DNA of 21,761 nucleotides from a virus. Shown piece by piece: positions 7,897 to 15,300 of this stretch. Every line of letters begins with the position of its first letter. Position 1 is the stretch's first letter. The translations under genes were made by a program, and so were the position numbers. Below the pieces are notes generated by a model. That model was not told where the DNA came from and made no database searches. It worked only from the letters and a program-made list of their open reading frames with translations. The stretch is taken from IMG/VR virus record IMGVR_UViG_3300027763_000265, positions 1 through 21,761 of that record, one strand, 5' to 3'.

Positions 7897-8548
7897 CAGG
7901 TTCCTCAACCGGCTTGGCCGGTTCAGGTTCAACAACTGGTGCAGCCTGAACCTTTGCGTTAAGTTCGTCAATCCCAACGGAAACCTTGACGGATTCCACG
8001 TCGATCACTTCCTCCTGCGTCTGGAGGCCAACCAGCAAGTCACCGGCAAAAAGACGCCCCCAAAAAGCTGCTGCCCTGTACCTGATCATCAGCTCTGGCA
8101 TCGTGATCCACTTGGATCCACTTTTGGTGGCCCATCCTTCCTTCTTGGCCATCGCCATCGTGATGGTCGGCCCCTTCAACTCCTGGTCCGTTTTGATGTC
8201 AGTGGCAACTGCATAGCAGGCAAGGCTGTCACCTTCGCCGCTGACCTCAAACCGCAACGGCGTAAACCGGCCGCAGCCGTTGACCATGGCGATGATAAAA
8301 GCGCTGCTCCAGCTGGGGCGCCCGTGGATGATGTGTAGATGTTGCATACACAGAAACGGACTGATGTTCATCCGTCCTGCAATCTCCAGCGCAACCAAGC
8401 AGTTGGCAAAACCGTTTTGCCCTTGGAACTGCGGTGGAATCAGCGTGCTACTGGCCAAAGCTTTCGCAATGCGCTGGGCGTCCTCGAACGCCCGGATGCC
8501 CGAAAAAACAGAGTTGTTGGTCGTGGTCAGTGTTGTGGTTTCAGTCAT
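7883..8548 (-). CDS. RecT-like single-strand annealing protein
   Basis: A 221-residue protein with features of the RecT family: an N-terminal helix (FEDAQRIAKALASSTLIPPQ), NCLVALEIAGRMNISPFLCM, then a long beta-rich core (HIIHGRPSWSSAFIIAMVNG, ATDIKTDQELKGP) and ITMPELMIRYRAAAFWGRLF. RecT proteins bind single-stranded DNA and anneal complementary strands, working with a 5'-3' exonuclease. The RecE-like gene directly upstream (TAATG overlap) supports this. The C-terminal tail is Pro- and Glu-rich and ends in EEPDDLF, an SSB-like acidic tip, which is unusual for an annealing protein. Confidence 0.88.
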   Translation of the reverse strand: MTETTTLTTTNNSVFSGIRAFEDAQRIAKALASSTLIPPQFQGQNGFANCLVALEIAGRMNISPFLCMQHLHIIHGRPSWSSAFIIAMVNGCGRFTPLRFEVSGEGDSLACYAVATDIKTDQELKGPTITMAMAKKEGWATKSGSKWITMPELMIRYRAAAFWGRLFAGDLLVGLQTQEEVIDVESVKVSVGIDELNAKVQAAPVVEPEPAKPVEEPDDLF

Positions 8549-11194: not shown

Positions 11195-11918
11195 AGCACA
11201 ACACCCGCCACTCATTACTGCCGTTAGTAAATTCCACTTTGCGCAATGACCCTGTGCTTGCGTACACAAAAGTATTGCAACCAAAACAACCCTTGCTCCA
11301 CTTGGTTGGCCCAAGATGTTTGAACTGCAATGTCTCACGCACTTGGCGTTTTATTGCCTGACGGTTTAGTTCCTGCTGCTCCTTCCACACACGCTGTCGC
11401 TCAGCAGCCTCAGCCTCATATTGCAGTTGCTTACGCTGACGCTCTTTAGCTTTTTGCAAACCAAGCCAATTTACAAACGGATGATTTCTGCTAAACCGGA
11501 TCGAATCAGCGCACATTTCAATAGACAAAGAAGAAGTGCCACCAACTGTGCCAACGACTAAAACCGACTCACCCGTTAGTTCTGCTAAACGTTTTGGCTT
11601 CCAAAGTTCCTGCACCAAAAGATTTTGCAAATCTTTGGAATTGACGTTCTCGTGTTGAATCTCACCAGAAAAACGCTCGCCATGCCTGCGCGTTACGCCT
11701 AGCACGTCTCGCAAGTCATACAAAAATTGCTGTGGCTTGGCCTCGACCCATCGAGGCAAGTGGAGCGCCTGATCAGCGCTGTTGATCGTAAAGTCTGGTA
11801 GGTAGCGCACGGCTGGTCCATTAGGCAAGATCACTGGCTTTTCGTAGTCCCAGTCGATTCCATGCTCATCAAGCTCCTGAGCGACAAGCACTTCAAGATG
11901 CGACCGAAAAGCTGGCAT
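11169..11918 (-). CDS. PD-(D/E)XK nuclease with C-terminal zinc ribbon, inverted within replication genes
   Basis: A 249-residue protein. The N-terminus has a T7-endonuclease-I-like site order: SHLEVLVAQEL (Glu9), WDYEKP, VRYLPDFTI (Asp42) and WVEAKPQQF (Glu59, Lys61). A charged coiled-coil-like region follows (KAKERQRKQLQYEAEAAERQ), then a zinc ribbon CFGC (211, 214) and CSNC (241, 244). It could cut branched or specific DNA; a host-takeover nuclease is an alternative. It is the only minus-strand gene between 9391 and 21435, its own two-way promoter lies at its start, and its sequence is visibly more AT-rich than its neighbours, all of which suggest separate acquisition. Confidence 0.75.
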   Translation of the reverse strand: MPAFRSHLEVLVAQELDEHGIDWDYEKPVILPNGPAVRYLPDFTINSADQALHLPRWVEAKPQQFLYDLRDVLGVTRRHGERFSGEIQHENVNSKDLQNLLVQELWKPKRLAELTGESVLVVGTVGGTSSLSIEMCADSIRFSRNHPFVNWLGLQKAKERQRKQLQYEAEAAERQRVWKEQQELNRQAIKRQVRETLQFKHLGPTKWSKGCFGCNTFVYASTGSLRKVEFTNGSNEWRVLCSNCCHQQH

Positions 11919-11976
11919 GGGTTGGCAGTTGCAGATTTCACGCTATAGTAACCCCAGCAATCCGCTAGCGCAACCC
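11919..11976. promoter_or_regulatory. Second two-way promoter, between PD-(D/E)XK and RHH genes
   Basis: Rightwards: TTGGCA (11922-11927), 16 bases, TATAGT (11944-11949). Leftwards: TTGCGC (11973-11968), 17 bases, TACTAT (11950-11945). The two -10 hexamers overlap. Outer arms GGGTTGGC (11919-11926) and GCGCAACCC (11968-11976) match those of the site at 9394-9445. The plus-strand start that follows, GCAACCCATGCAACCTCAG, is nearly the same as at the helicase gene (GCAACCCCATGCAACTCAG). Confidence 0.6.
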
Positions 11977-12132
11977 ATGCAACCTCAGCGCCTCCAGCGC
12001 CGCACCATCACCCTTGACCTGCCACCAGAGCAAATTGCGTGGCTTGATCTTCAGGCTGGTCAGTTGATGTCCCGATCGGCTTTCGTCCGACAGATGATCG
12101 CCGCAGCAATGCAGCAACAGCCCACAGCATGA
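11977..12132 (+). CDS. Ribbon-helix-helix DNA-binding protein (51 aa)
   Basis: I place the start at ATG 11977, after the two-way promoter, rather than at 11917 inside it. The 51-residue product has the RHH plan: a strand RRTITLDLP (8-16), a helix PEQIAWLDLQAGQ and a helix SRSAFVRQMIAAAMQQQ. RHH proteins of this size (Arc/CopG type) bind as dimers through the strand and often repress their own promoter. The promoter arms at 11919-11976 and 9394-9445 are candidate operators; this is inference. The stop overlaps the primase start (ATGA), so the regulator and primase are coupled. Confidence 0.8.
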   Translation: MQPQRLQRRTITLDLPPEQIAWLDLQAGQLMSRSAFVRQMIAAAMQQQPTA

Positions 12133-14579
12133 GCAAAATTACAGATCTAGCCAACGGCCATTGGCCGTCAATTCTTGGCGCCCTTGCTGGCATCACAGCC
12201 GACCAGCTCACCGACAAACACCAACCGTGCCCCCTTTGTGGTGGCGAAGACCGCTACCGTTTTGATGACCGCGAAGGCAACGGCACTTGGTTCTGCAATC
12301 AATGCGGTGGCCCAAACTGCAACGGCGGTGCTGGCAATGGCATGACATTGCTGATGCGCCGCAACAACTGGTCATTCAAAGAAGCAGCTACTCGCATCGA
12401 ACACCACCTCGGCGTCGCCCCGAAGCGCCCACAGCCACCGATTAAAGGCGCTGAGTCCGTCTGGCACTACAGCCAAGATTTCATCGTTTGCCGCTTCCCT
12501 AATAAGCAGATCAGACCTCTGTGCTGGGATGGTTCCACATGGTGTTGGAAGGCACCACCTGCACCTCGGCCACTCCTCAACCTTAATGCACTAGCAACCA
12601 AACCCGACGCAACCGTACTGATTGTTGAAGGCGAAAAGACCGCTGACGCAGCCGCCAAGCTTTACCCAAAGGCAGTGGTCACCACCTGGCCATCAGGTTG
12701 CAAGGCCATCGATAAAGCCGACTGGTCGCCCATAGCCAATCGGCGGATCATCCTTTGGCCTGATGCCGATCAACCTGGCCGTCAAGCTATGGATCGGCTA
12801 TCGCGCAAGCTGCTGCAACTTGGCGTTGATCGCCTGCAAATTGCATCACCACCCCAAGACGCCACAGAAGGCTGGGACTTAGCCGATGCTCAATGGTCAA
12901 TCGAGGAAGCAGCCGCCTACATCAAGACCAACATCTCCCAACCACTGGAGCCCATTGCTCCACCGCCGCAGGATGGTGAGCCTGCCGATCCAGAACCAGA
13001 ACCCGAGCCATCAGAGCTTCCTTTCCGTTGCCTTGGTTTTGATCGCGGTTCCTACTTCTATCTGCCAACCGCTGGTGGTCAGGTCATTGAGCTAACAGCT
13101 AGCCAGCACACCAAACTCAACCTCCTGAATCTGGCGCCTCTCAAATGGTGGTTGGCTGCCTACAACAAAGGCACTGGTCCCAATTGGGATCAAGCAGCCG
13201 ATAGCCTCATGTCGCTCTGTTTGGGCCAAGGCGTCTACGACTCGGATCGCGTCCGTGGTCGTGGTGCCTGGTACGACCGTGATCGCGTCATCGTTCACCT
13301 TGGTAATCGCCTCATCGTTGATGGCATCGAGCACGACATCTCCTCCCCACCGCTTACCCACTTTTTCTACGAACACGCCAAGCAGCTAACCGGACCCGCA
13401 GCCACGCCACTTTCAGATGAAATGGCAATCAAGATCCGCAACATCGCCACACGTTTTCGCTGGGAGGTGCCAGTAAACGCCTACTTCCTTCTTGGCTGGA
13501 CCGTCCTCGCCCCAGTCTGCGGTGCTCTGGACTGGCGCCCGCACGCTTGGATCACAGGTGGTGCAGGCACCGGCAAAACCACCATCCTCAAGCACTTTCT
13601 GCGCCCTCTCCTTGGCGGGATCTATCAAGCCGCAACAGGTGGCACAACTGAAGCGGGCCTTCGCGGCACTCTGCGCTCTGATGCAATCCCAGTTGTCTTT
13701 GATGAGTTCGAGCAGAATGAACAACGCGACAAACAGATCGTTCAAAACGTCCTTGCACTTGCTCGAATTGCATCATCAGAAGGCGGCAAAATCTACAAAG
13801 GCACCACCTCAGGTGGCGCAAATGCCTTTGAAATTCGCAGCATGTTCTGCGTTTCTTCCATCAACGTTGCACTCATTCAAAAGGCAGACATCGATCGCTT
13901 TTGCGTCCTGGGTCTTCGTAAGGATCCACTTGACAAAGACGAATGGACTGCCTTTGAGCAAGACATCCTCGCAACCGTCACGCCCGAACGTGGTCGTGAA
14001 TTGATCGCCCGCACGGTCCAAAACATCCCCACCATCCGCAAGAACGCCCACACCCTTGCCAAGGCCCTAGCCATCCAATTCGGCCAGCGCTACGGCGATC
14101 AATACGGCACCCTCCTAGCTGGCGCTTGGTCGCTATCCCCAGGCGGTGGTGAGCCACTCACCGTTGAGCAGGCTCACGCATGGATCAAAACCATGAACTG
14201 GGAATCCCAGCAAACCGATCCATCCGACGCCGATGAGGTCAAGTGCCTCAACCACATCCTCAACACCATGGTCCTTGCCGACAACCAGCGCATCACCATC
14301 CGCGAACTATTTGCCCTTGCACGCACCAGCCTGCAACTCGGCAACGAATCACCAGCCGCCATCCTTGCCCGCTACGGCATCAAATACCACGATGGTGGCA
14401 TCGCCATCGCCAACACCCAATCCAACCTGCAAAGCCTGCTCCGGGACACCCCATGGAGCGGTGGTGCTCACCGCCAAGCGTTACGCCGTATTGATGGCGC
14501 CGTGACAACTAGCCCAATTCGCTTTGAAAAAATGGGCACCATGCGCTGCACCCTCATTCCCATCGACCTCCTAGCGTGA
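12129..14579 (+). CDS. Primase-helicase (zinc ribbon, TOPRIM, P-loop ATPase)
   Basis: An 816-residue replication protein. The N-terminus is a primase zinc ribbon, CPLCGGEDRYRF (34-45) with CNQC (56-59). A TOPRIM-like region follows (VLIVEGEKTADA, Glu168; LWPDADQPGR, Asp212 and Asp214). A long linker with an acidic, Pro-rich part (near 280-300) leads to an ATPase domain with Walker A GGAGTGKTT (477-485) and Walker B VVFDEFEQ (Asp525, Glu526), like phage and plasmid DUF927/DUF5906-type helicases. It would make primers and unwind the fork. It overlaps the RHH gene's stop, and the first copy of the 9-base repeat overlaps its own stop codon. The protein is full length. Confidence 0.9.
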   Translation: MSKITDLANGHWPSILGALAGITADQLTDKHQPCPLCGGEDRYRFDDREGNGTWFCNQCGGPNCNGGAGNGMTLLMRRNNWSFKEAATRIEHHLGVAPKRPQPPIKGAESVWHYSQDFIVCRFPNKQIRPLCWDGSTWCWKAPPAPRPLLNLNALATKPDATVLIVEGEKTADAAAKLYPKAVVTTWPSGCKAIDKADWSPIANRRIILWPDADQPGRQAMDRLSRKLLQLGVDRLQIASPPQDATEGWDLADAQWSIEEAAAYIKTNISQPLEPIAPPPQDGEPADPEPEPEPSELPFRCLGFDRGSYFYLPTAGGQVIELTASQHTKLNLLNLAPLKWWLAAYNKGTGPNWDQAADSLMSLCLGQGVYDSDRVRGRGAWYDRDRVIVHLGNRLIVDGIEHDISSPPLTHFFYEHAKQLTGPAATPLSDEMAIKIRNIATRFRWEVPVNAYFLLGWTVLAPVCGALDWRPHAWITGGAGTGKTTILKHFLRPLLGGIYQAATGGTTEAGLRGTLRSDAIPVVFDEFEQNEQRDKQIVQNVLALARIASSEGGKIYKGTTSGGANAFEIRSMFCVSSINVALIQKADIDRFCVLGLRKDPLDKDEWTAFEQDILATVTPERGRELIARTVQNIPTIRKNAHTLAKALAIQFGQRYGDQYGTLLAGAWSLSPGGGEPLTVEQAHAWIKTMNWESQQTDPSDADEVKCLNHILNTMVLADNQRITIRELFALARTSLQLGNESPAAILARYGIKYHDGGIAIANTQSNLQSLLRDTPWSGGAHRQALRRIDGAVTTSPIRFEKMGTMRCTLIPIDLLA

Positions 14580-14588
14580 CAAATCCAC

Positions 14589-14738
14589 TGTTACGCTCAC
14601 TTCCCTTGCGCCGCAACGTTTGTCACGCTTGTCACGCTTTTTTTCAGGTGTCACGCTTTTTTGATTTTGTTACGCCGACCGTAACGCTGAGATCGCCTGC
14701 ACCGCAACCGATGTCACGCTTGTCACGCTTGTCACGCT
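14589..14738 (+). repeat. Left array of 9-base direct repeats TGTCACGCT
   Basis: Exact copies at 14621-14629, 14630-14638 (tandem), 14649-14657, and 14712-14720, 14721-14729, 14730-14738 (three in tandem). Variants at 14589-14597 (TGTTACGCT), 14668-14676 (TGTTACGCC) and 14680-14688 (CGTAACGCT). Several copies are head-to-tail with no spacer, so a bound protein would sit on one DNA face at roughly one turn. The reading frame across this stretch is a by-product of the repeats. Confidence 0.85.
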
Positions 14739-14824
14739 TCCGGGGAAACATAACCCCATATAGACAGAGAACCCCCCTTACCCCCTCTCACCCCTCTCTA
14801 TCTATATCTTTATTTATAGAAAAA
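14739..14824. other. Pyrimidine- and AT-rich core between the two repeat arrays
   Basis: The core has a short GGGG/CCCC hairpin (14742-14757), a pyrimidine run of C and T from about 14772 to 14800, and then an A/T-rich stretch (TATCTATATCTTTATTTATAG, 14798-14818). Such asymmetry is typical of a DNA unwinding element, or of a transcription start region. No DnaA box was recognised. Confidence 0.45.
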
Positions 14825-14904
14825 GAGTAACAAGCGTGACAATGGCTGCGCTGCAAGGGATCTCGGCGTAACAAGGACCGTGACACAGCGTGACAAACGT
14901 GACA
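14825..14904 (-). repeat. Right array of inverted 9-base repeats (AGCGTGACA)
   Basis: Exact inverted copies lie at 14833-14841 and 14887-14895. Variants lie at 14865-14873 (GGCGTAACA), 14877-14885 (ACCGTGACA), 14896-14904 (AACGTGACA), and a partial one near 14825. All point opposite to the left array, so the whole region is an imperfect large palindrome. Confidence 0.7.
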
Positions 14905-14973: not shown

Positions 14974-15300
14974 ATGGCAAAGAAAGGAACCAACGTTGAA
15001 GTCGATGGCCGTGTAAATGCGGTCTACGATCTTCTTTTGCAGGCATACAACCGCACGCAAATTGTGCGTCACTGTGCGGAACAGTGGGATATAAGCGAGC
15101 GGCAGGCCGAAAATTACATTGCGAGAGCTAGAAAACTTCAGCAAGAGGTGGCCGATCAAAACCGCGATGAATGGTTTGTCAGTGCCCTTTCCCGCTTGCA
15201 GGATTGCGAACGTGAAGCCCGGAAACGGGGCAACATCGGCGTCGCCATCAAAGCCGTTGAAACTCAGGCCCGGCTGCTTCGCTTTGACCTGAACGGATGA
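14974..15300 (+). CDS. terS: Terminase small subunit
   Basis: A 108-residue protein that would bind the packaging start site on phage DNA and load the large subunit. An N-terminal helix-turn-helix is visible (VDGRVNAVYDLLLQAYNRTQ, then CAEQWDISERQAENYIARAR), followed by helices (WFVSALSRLQDCEREARK, VAIKAVETQARLLRF) for oligomer formation. Length fits small terminases. The stop overlaps the large-subunit ATG (ATGA), a usual arrangement. The 9-base repeat array just upstream might be its target. A small hairpin GCCGG/CCGGC (14926-14940) precedes it; no clear promoter was found. Confidence 0.85.
   Translation: MAKKGTNVEVDGRVNAVYDLLLQAYNRTQIVRHCAEQWDISERQAENYIARARKLQQEVADQNRDEWFVSALSRLQDCEREARKRGNIGVAIKAVETQARLLRFDLNG

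Follow-up and report, generated by a model that had tools for sequence, protein, structure and literature searches.

Organization of the locus

The DNA analysed here, referred to as the window, is the whole stretch of 21,761 bases of one virus record, which is an incomplete linear contig. Between the stop codon of a primase-helicase gene (14579) and the start of a gene in the position of the small terminase subunit, TerS (14974), there is an intergenic stretch that carries an array of 9-bp repeats (iterons). The genes after the array encode the TerS-position protein, the terminase large subunit (Terminase_6N/6C), a DUF4055 protein in the portal position and a Mu F-like head protein. Synechococcus phage S-H1 is the nearest annotated genome found, the cyanophages KBS-S-2A and MED4-184 were matched through the terminase, and the relatives in bacterial genomes with more than 40% identity come mainly from Cyanobium, Synechococcus and uncultured cyanobacteria. 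Judged from these sequence relationships, the host is probably a picocyanobacterium. The features of the locus are as follows.

11917 to 12132, + strand: small ribbon-helix-helix-like (RHH-like) protein, upstream of the initiator gene (RHH_1 at E 0.24 only)
12129 to 14579, + strand: candidate initiator, an 816-aa primase-helicase (profile, PHROG, AlphaFold and PDB matches)
14573 to 14581, - strand: exact iteron, overlapping the primase-helicase stop codon (TGA)
14589 to 14597, + strand: variant iteron TGTTACGCT
14606 to 14616, no strand: palindrome-like second element TTGCGCCGCAA, module A (family pattern enriched in arrays)
14621 to 14638, + strand: two tandem exact iterons
14649 to 14657, + strand: exact iteron
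14668 to 14688, + strand: two degenerate iterons, TGTTACGCC (14668) and CGTAACGCT (14680), read from the sequence
14697 to 14707, no strand: second element CTGCACCGCAA, module B
14712 to 14738, + strand: three tandem exact iterons, innermost in the left arm and facing the core
14739 to 14832, no strand: core between the arms, a C-rich/pyrimidine part followed by an AT-rich part (31 A, 30 C, 10 G, 23 T)
14795 to 14834, no strand: predicted unwinding element, the least stable 40-mer of the window
14833 to 14841, - strand: exact iteron, innermost in the right arm and facing the core
14846 to 14856, no strand: second element CTGCGCTGCAA, module C (inverted)
14865 to 14873, - strand: degenerate iteron, TGTTACGCC on the - strand
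14877 to 14904, - strand: three leftward iterons, TGTCACGGT, exact TGTCACGCT (14887) and TGTCACGTT
14974 to 15300, + strand: small-terminase candidate by position, 108 aa (PHROG 34910, unknown function)

The array consists of two arms (14573-14738 and 14833-14904), and its repeats span -7 to +325 from the initiator stop codon. The exact repeat TGTCACGCT is present in six copies on the + strand (14621, 14630, 14649, 14712, 14721, 14730) and in three copies on the - strand (14573, 14833, 14887). An earlier sequence-only reading had described the six rightward copies and a pyrimidine/AT-rich core between the arms, both of which were recovered here. It had also described a mirror arrangement with at least two exact leftward copies; three were found, but the mirror is imperfect, with the copy at 14573 lying at the far left. 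The search for the motif elsewhere, which that reading had proposed, placed all nine exact copies inside the array and none in the rest of the 21.8-kb record. When one mismatch or fewer was allowed, there were 19 matches in the window against 6.4 expected from shuffles, a number reached by none of 100 shuffles; 12 of these lie in 14573-14904 and seven are scattered elsewhere. When the flank 3' of the gene was searched de novo for repeats in four near-identical loci (L010-L013), TGTCACGCT came out as the top word, scoring 21-23 compared with 4-5 for shuffled sequence.

The array is modular. A unit of approximately 50 bases occurs as a direct pair (14587-14639 and 14678-14730, 79%) and once inverted (14589-14642 with 14820-14873, 80%), and each module contains a lone repeat, the palindrome-like element TTGCRSYGCAA and tandem repeats. 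The family pattern TTGCRSYGCAA is present in 21 of 31 loci, at 4.4 per kb in the arrays of relatives versus 0.39 per kb outside them; as it is nearly palindromic, many sites are counted on both strands.

The primase-helicase

Four parts can be distinguished in the primase-helicase: a Zn ribbon (residues ~30-63), a TOPRIM-type primase (~100-274), an AAA+ helicase (~292-696) and a putative DNA-binding C-terminal domain (~700-816), in whose last beta-hairpin the model places Arg798. The protein matches Zn_Ribbon_Prim in Pfam (E 1.7e-14) and PHROG 35358, annotated 'DNA primase' (6e-125). Residues 299-815 match no curated Pfam or NCBIfam family above cut-off, and no named helicase family passed the cut-off when residues 299-696 were searched with profiles. 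The P4/D5 profiles (TIGR01613, D5_N) gave no match to the protein, with E values of up to 10 allowed in Pfam and of up to 1 in NCBIfam. No Pfam match to a Rep_3-type initiator, the kind found at classical iteron plasmid origins, was obtained, and DUF927, the family of the helicases Cch and SaPIbov1 Rep, is not among the Pfam matches at E up to 10, although Cch is the best fold match.

The full AlphaFold model has a pLDDT of 84.7. Its residues 292-696 align best in the PDB with the SCCmec Cch helicase (5dgk; Z 14.7 over 332 residues) and also with SaPI5 PriRep (Z 11.9), which suggests a helicase fold of the SaPI Rep/Cch type, at the level of the fold only. The region ~100-274 of the model aligns with the DnaG and T7 primases, and a sequence search against solved structures returned mostly matches to the primase part (T7 primase, E 2e-4). 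For a separate model of the last 122 residues (pLDDT 92), Foldseek alone gave no significant match, while the top VIA-align row of 747 chains was SaPIbov1 Rep 447-553 (8tch; Z 5.1 over 99 residues), and PriRep1 and Cch were also aligned at Z ~3. A Z of 5.1 is weak by itself; what gives the predicted similarity its weight is that the top match is the initiator of an element with the same genetic layout.

Conservation of the array beside the primase-helicase gene

The comparison drew on 80 viral relatives of the primase-helicase, most of which carry repeats of a single 9-mer type between roughly -7 and +340 relative to the stop codon of this gene. When all the 410-base stretches of a locus were ranked, the one that follows the gene had the highest repeat content in 45 of 76 viral loci (3.6 expected), in 22 of 72 loci from bacterial genomes (3.3 expected) and in 8 of 14 other loci (0.5 expected), counts that describe a trend and carry no probability, as related loci are not independent. 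In S-H1, seven of the 11 near matches of the repeat fall inside the array. Many relatives have just four to six degenerate repeats, some distant ones (L096-L099 and several proteobacterial loci) show no clear 3' array, and in one locus (L100) the repeat cluster lies upstream of the gene instead of 3' of it.

The DNA enclosed by the repeats is weak. The weakest 40-mer of the 21.8-kb window, in terms of nearest-neighbour duplex stability, starts at 14795 (40.8, compared with a mean of 57.6 and sd of 3.3). Of 83 loci, 68 have their weakest 40-mer inside the array region, and in 82 the weakest 40-mer of the array region is within the lowest 2% of its locus. As to orientation, among 28 non-redundant loci, the innermost left repeat faces the core in all 28 and the innermost right repeat in 26, the median distance between the two being 96 bases. 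The GC-skew check suggested by the sequence-only reading was run and was uninformative: the cumulative extremes of S-H1 are at 8280 and 32945, neither of which coincides with its array at ~17.7 kb, and skew within the window gives no support for an origin at the array.

Covariation of the repeat and the proposed initiator

The sequence of the repeat varies by lineage while the layout is kept, the types observed being TGTCACGCT, TGTTACGCT, TGTAACGGT, TGTGACGTT, TCTTACGCT, CATTACGGT and CCTAACGGT. Between lineages the copies within an array change in concert. Two loci with different repeats (L014 and L067), for example, have a common order of three left, three right, the core, left-facing inner copies, one right and three left.

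Residue 798, a column chosen post hoc from the whole protein as the best of the protein columns tested, agrees with base 2 of the repeat in all 31 non-redundant loci of the discovery set: 22 combine Arg with G, and nine combine His, Tyr or Trp with C or A. The window itself has Arg798 and TGTCACGCT, whereas Tyr goes with TCTTACGCT in L067, His with TCTTACGCT in L023 and Trp with CCTAACGGT in L070. With held-out loci of the same group added, all 93 alignable loci agree (69 Arg/G and 24 His-Tyr-Trp/C-A). On the tree, the residue and the base change five times each and all scored pairs are concordant; three independent pairs are situated on well-supported branches, all concordant, a number too small for significance in a sign test. 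The rule breaks in the most distant relatives, where Arg occurs with TATGACGC (L167) and Lys with G (L129, L094); the loci L167, L129 and L092-L094 either break the rule or are not reliably alignable. No clear partner column was found in the protein for repeat positions 4 and 8. Partial Mantel comparisons were mixed: iteron distance is more closely tied to the C-terminal domain than to the helicase, yet the primase part does no worse than the C-terminal domain. A contact between arginine and guanine is chemically ordinary, and it is inferred that Arg798 makes such a contact with the guanine at base 2.

These observations bear on the question of which protein reads the repeats. The array could be an origin that is read by a host initiator or by another phage initiator, with the primase-helicase merely loading there, and the second conserved element TTGCRSYGCAA could indeed serve another factor. 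However, the repeats differ between close phages and track residue 798 of the helicase itself, and the model of the C-terminal domain to which this residue belongs resembles the end of SaPIbov1 Rep; a separate reader is therefore improbable.

The array and the terminase

The sequence-only reading had left the choice between an origin and a packaging site. Pac sites are often located near terS, and in the window the TerS-position gene starts only 70 bp past the last repeat, as would be expected if the array were a pac site or a binding site of the small terminase. The relatives speak against this. Where terS is matched in these, it lies at +395, +1465, +1608, +1705, +3376 or some other distance from the primase stop, and in other relatives no terS match was detected, while the array stays at the primase stop; in the locus L011, whose initiator is 99% identical, the same array is in the same place and terS lies 1.07 kb further off. 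The array thus lacks the link to terS and terL that would mark a phage pac site, as the distance to terS varies from 0.4 to 3.4 kb and the distance to the initiator is fixed. A weakly paired core and covariation with the helicase are also unexpected of a pac site.

Small plasmids provide a second line of evidence. Four plasmids of Arsenophonus nasoniae, 8-12 kb in size, encode a relative of approximately 600 aa, which matches residues 299-815 or part of that range, i.e., the helicase and the C-terminus without the primase part. Three of the four are annotated as linear, and a protelomerase is annotated in three of the four. On all four, mirrored tandem repeats directly follow the helicase gene. 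In L094 the order is four copies of TTTGTTACC with a 12-base period, an inner inverted pair, an AT-rich core of ~100 bases, the same inner pair once more and four reversed copies. A gene annotated as terS is absent from one plasmid (L091) and lies several kb away on the other strand in the others (L092-L094), which again argues against packaging. Because these plasmids keep the array and no other replication gene is annotated on any of them, the array appears to belong to replication. Packaging is thus strongly disfavoured as the function of the array, and the TerS-position gene is a neighbour that lies outside the origin.

RHH proteins bind short repeats, and many relatives have an RHH-like gene either before the initiator gene or shortly after the array, but it is very doubtful that the array serves as operator or segregation site for the RHH protein encoded before the primase, which is probably not the reader of the iterons: its strand RTITLDLP is identical in loci with TGTCACGCT, TGTAACGGT and TGTTACGCT repeats (the window, L032 and L068), diverged RHH proteins (49% over 45 aa) accompany the same repeat as in the window in L012 and L013, and no RHH-like protein was detected on the Arsenophonus plasmids.

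The array as a probable replication origin

Because the array follows the initiator gene from locus to locus, surrounds the weakest-melting DNA of the record and covaries with the C-terminal domain, we propose, with a probability of about 0.88, that it is the replication origin of the phage and that the adjacent upstream primase-helicase is its initiator, acting through the C-terminal domain. Of the two functions considered in the sequence-only reading, the origin is strongly supported. As possible binders it had put forward the N-terminus of the primase, TerS and the RHH protein, whereas the part indicated here is the C-terminal domain of that same primase-helicase. As the record is an incomplete linear contig, the phage genome may have a second origin elsewhere.

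A mechanism can be outlined on this basis. The C-terminal domains would bind the 9-bp iterons in both arms, as suggested by their predicted fold and by the covariation of residue and base. Two helicase rings could form facing each other across the core, a geometry to which the convergent innermost repeats and the analogy with SaPI Rep point. The AT-rich half of the core, the weakness of which is computed, would melt; the helicase would then self-load on the single strands, where the first primers would be made by the TOPRIM primase fused to it, both of these steps being deduced from the domain content of the protein.

A broader proposal has, in our estimate, an even chance of being correct. 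According to it, the protein represents an unclassified and widespread family of initiator-helicases that is tied to an origin code which evolves fast: the 9-bp repeat would be read by the C-terminal domain, Arg798 would contact the guanine at base 2, and the repeats of an origin would change whenever the residue does. Cyanobacterial phages and prophages would thus carry a natural series of origins that exclude one another, with a looser relationship on small linear plasmids.

Comparison with known systems

No paper on the origins of this cyanophage group was found in a literature search. The alpha protein of satellite phage P4 combines primase, helicase and origin recognition in one polypeptide. 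According to annotation and sequence, the alpha gene of P4 is immediately followed by the crr repeats, which occur in both orientations, and this resembles the window. The cis sites of P4 are two and lie apart, ori1 and crr, and one cluster is seen in the window, an incomplete record; the iteron of P4 is TGTTCACC-like and differs from that of the window, and no P4-family profile (TIGR01613, D5_N) matches the window protein.

The likeness to Cch and Cch2 of SCCmec lies in the predicted fold of the helicase core (Cch 5dgk, Z 14.7), whereas the fused TOPRIM primase is lacking on the SCCmec side. Cch2 binds repeats downstream of its own operon (PMC7581432). In the Cch2 case there are three 5-nt repeats, and SCC elements are not known to have been shown to replicate in vivo. 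The primase-helicase-winged helix protein ORF904 of pRN1 also has its origin 3' of its gene (PMC4234260), but that origin is a stem-loop without iterons and the primase is of the archaeo-eukaryotic type.

The closest layout is that of the pri-rep-ori modules of SaPI/PICI satellites (SaPIbov1, EcCICFT073). In these elements a self-loading AAA+ initiator helicase has a C-terminal DNA-binding domain and an origin immediately 3' of its gene (PMC7581432, PMC6092414); PICI origins always have two iteron sets around an AT-rich region, and PICI pri-ori plasmids have been tested for maintenance (PMC6092414). Correspondingly, the putative origin of the window is directly 3' of the initiator gene, two iteron sets flank an AT-rich region, and the best structural match of the modelled C-terminal domain is SaPIbov1 Rep. 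Three differences should be highlighted. First, a PICI satellite lacks its own capsid and large terminase genes and depends on a helper, whereas the window encodes its own large terminase (Terminase_6N/6C), portal-position (DUF4055) and Mu F-like head proteins, so that identification of the element as a satellite was rejected. Second, the primases of SaPIbov1 and SaPI5 are of the AEP type (PMC7581432), but the window has a TOPRIM-type primase preceded by a zinc ribbon like that of T7. Third, no Pfam or NCBIfam family matches the helicase region of the window protein above cut-off.

A layout known from SaPI/PICI satellites is thus found here in non-satellite phages with an unclassified helicase. 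Its presence in non-satellite cyanophages, in Cyanobium and Synechococcus genomes and on small plasmids with protelomerase genes makes it look like a general replicon design. It also offers a rule for finding origins in unannotated phages, namely converging repeats around the weakest DNA, 3' of this primase-helicase gene, and the pair of residue 798 and base 2 provides a concrete, testable case of co-evolution between an initiator and its origin.

The helicase region of the probable initiator

The helicase region of the 816-aa initiator (window 12129-14579, residues 299-696) is common to phages, plasmids and many bacterial genomes. Residues 299-696 gave no match above the cut-off among the Pfam or NCBIfam families, and this region is a candidate new family.

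Elements and small genes at the probable origin

Besides the mirrored iterons, the array next to the initiator gene carries a second conserved element, and an RHH-like small gene lies nearby:

11917-12132, RHH-like small gene, upstream of the initiator gene
14606-14616, 14697-14707 and 14846-14856, TTGCRSYGCAA

TTGCRSYGCAA, which GAGATC frequently adjoins, is enriched in the arrays of relatives. RHH-like small genes occur next to the origin: in the window's clade they precede the initiator gene, and in the clade of Synechococcus phage S-H1 they come after the array; in loci L006 and L070 they are found just 3' of it. The proteins they encode could possibly serve as copy control or accessory factors.

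Lifestyle and related loci

The left edge of the window, where the record is cut, holds one further feature:

3-380, phage integrase, C-terminal part

This partial integrase suggests that the phage is temperate. A contig labelled as part of a beta proteobacterium MAG (CAIMHL010000316.1, L102) encodes an initiator 96% identical to that of the window and has the same TGTCACGCT array; it is probably a phage contig mis-binned into that MAG.

Compared with the window, locus L011 has about 1.07 kb of additional DNA (roughly 2950-4100 in L011) separating the array from terS, despite which its small and large terminase genes, terS and terL, are 97-99% identical to those of the window.

In Acinetobacter phage Acjo_20 (L100), the GTGTAACAC repeat cluster precedes the initiator gene, about 180-580 b upstream, and is not 3' of it. 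The Arsenophonus nasoniae plasmids (L091-L094; 7.9-11.6 kb), three of four annotated as linear and three of four with annotated protelomerase genes, encode a primase-less relative of the initiator, and directly behind its gene comes an array of repeats that is close to symmetric. From plasmid to plasmid the core looks similar in parts and the repeats are unlike; in L094 the order is four forward, two reverse, core, two forward and four reverse.
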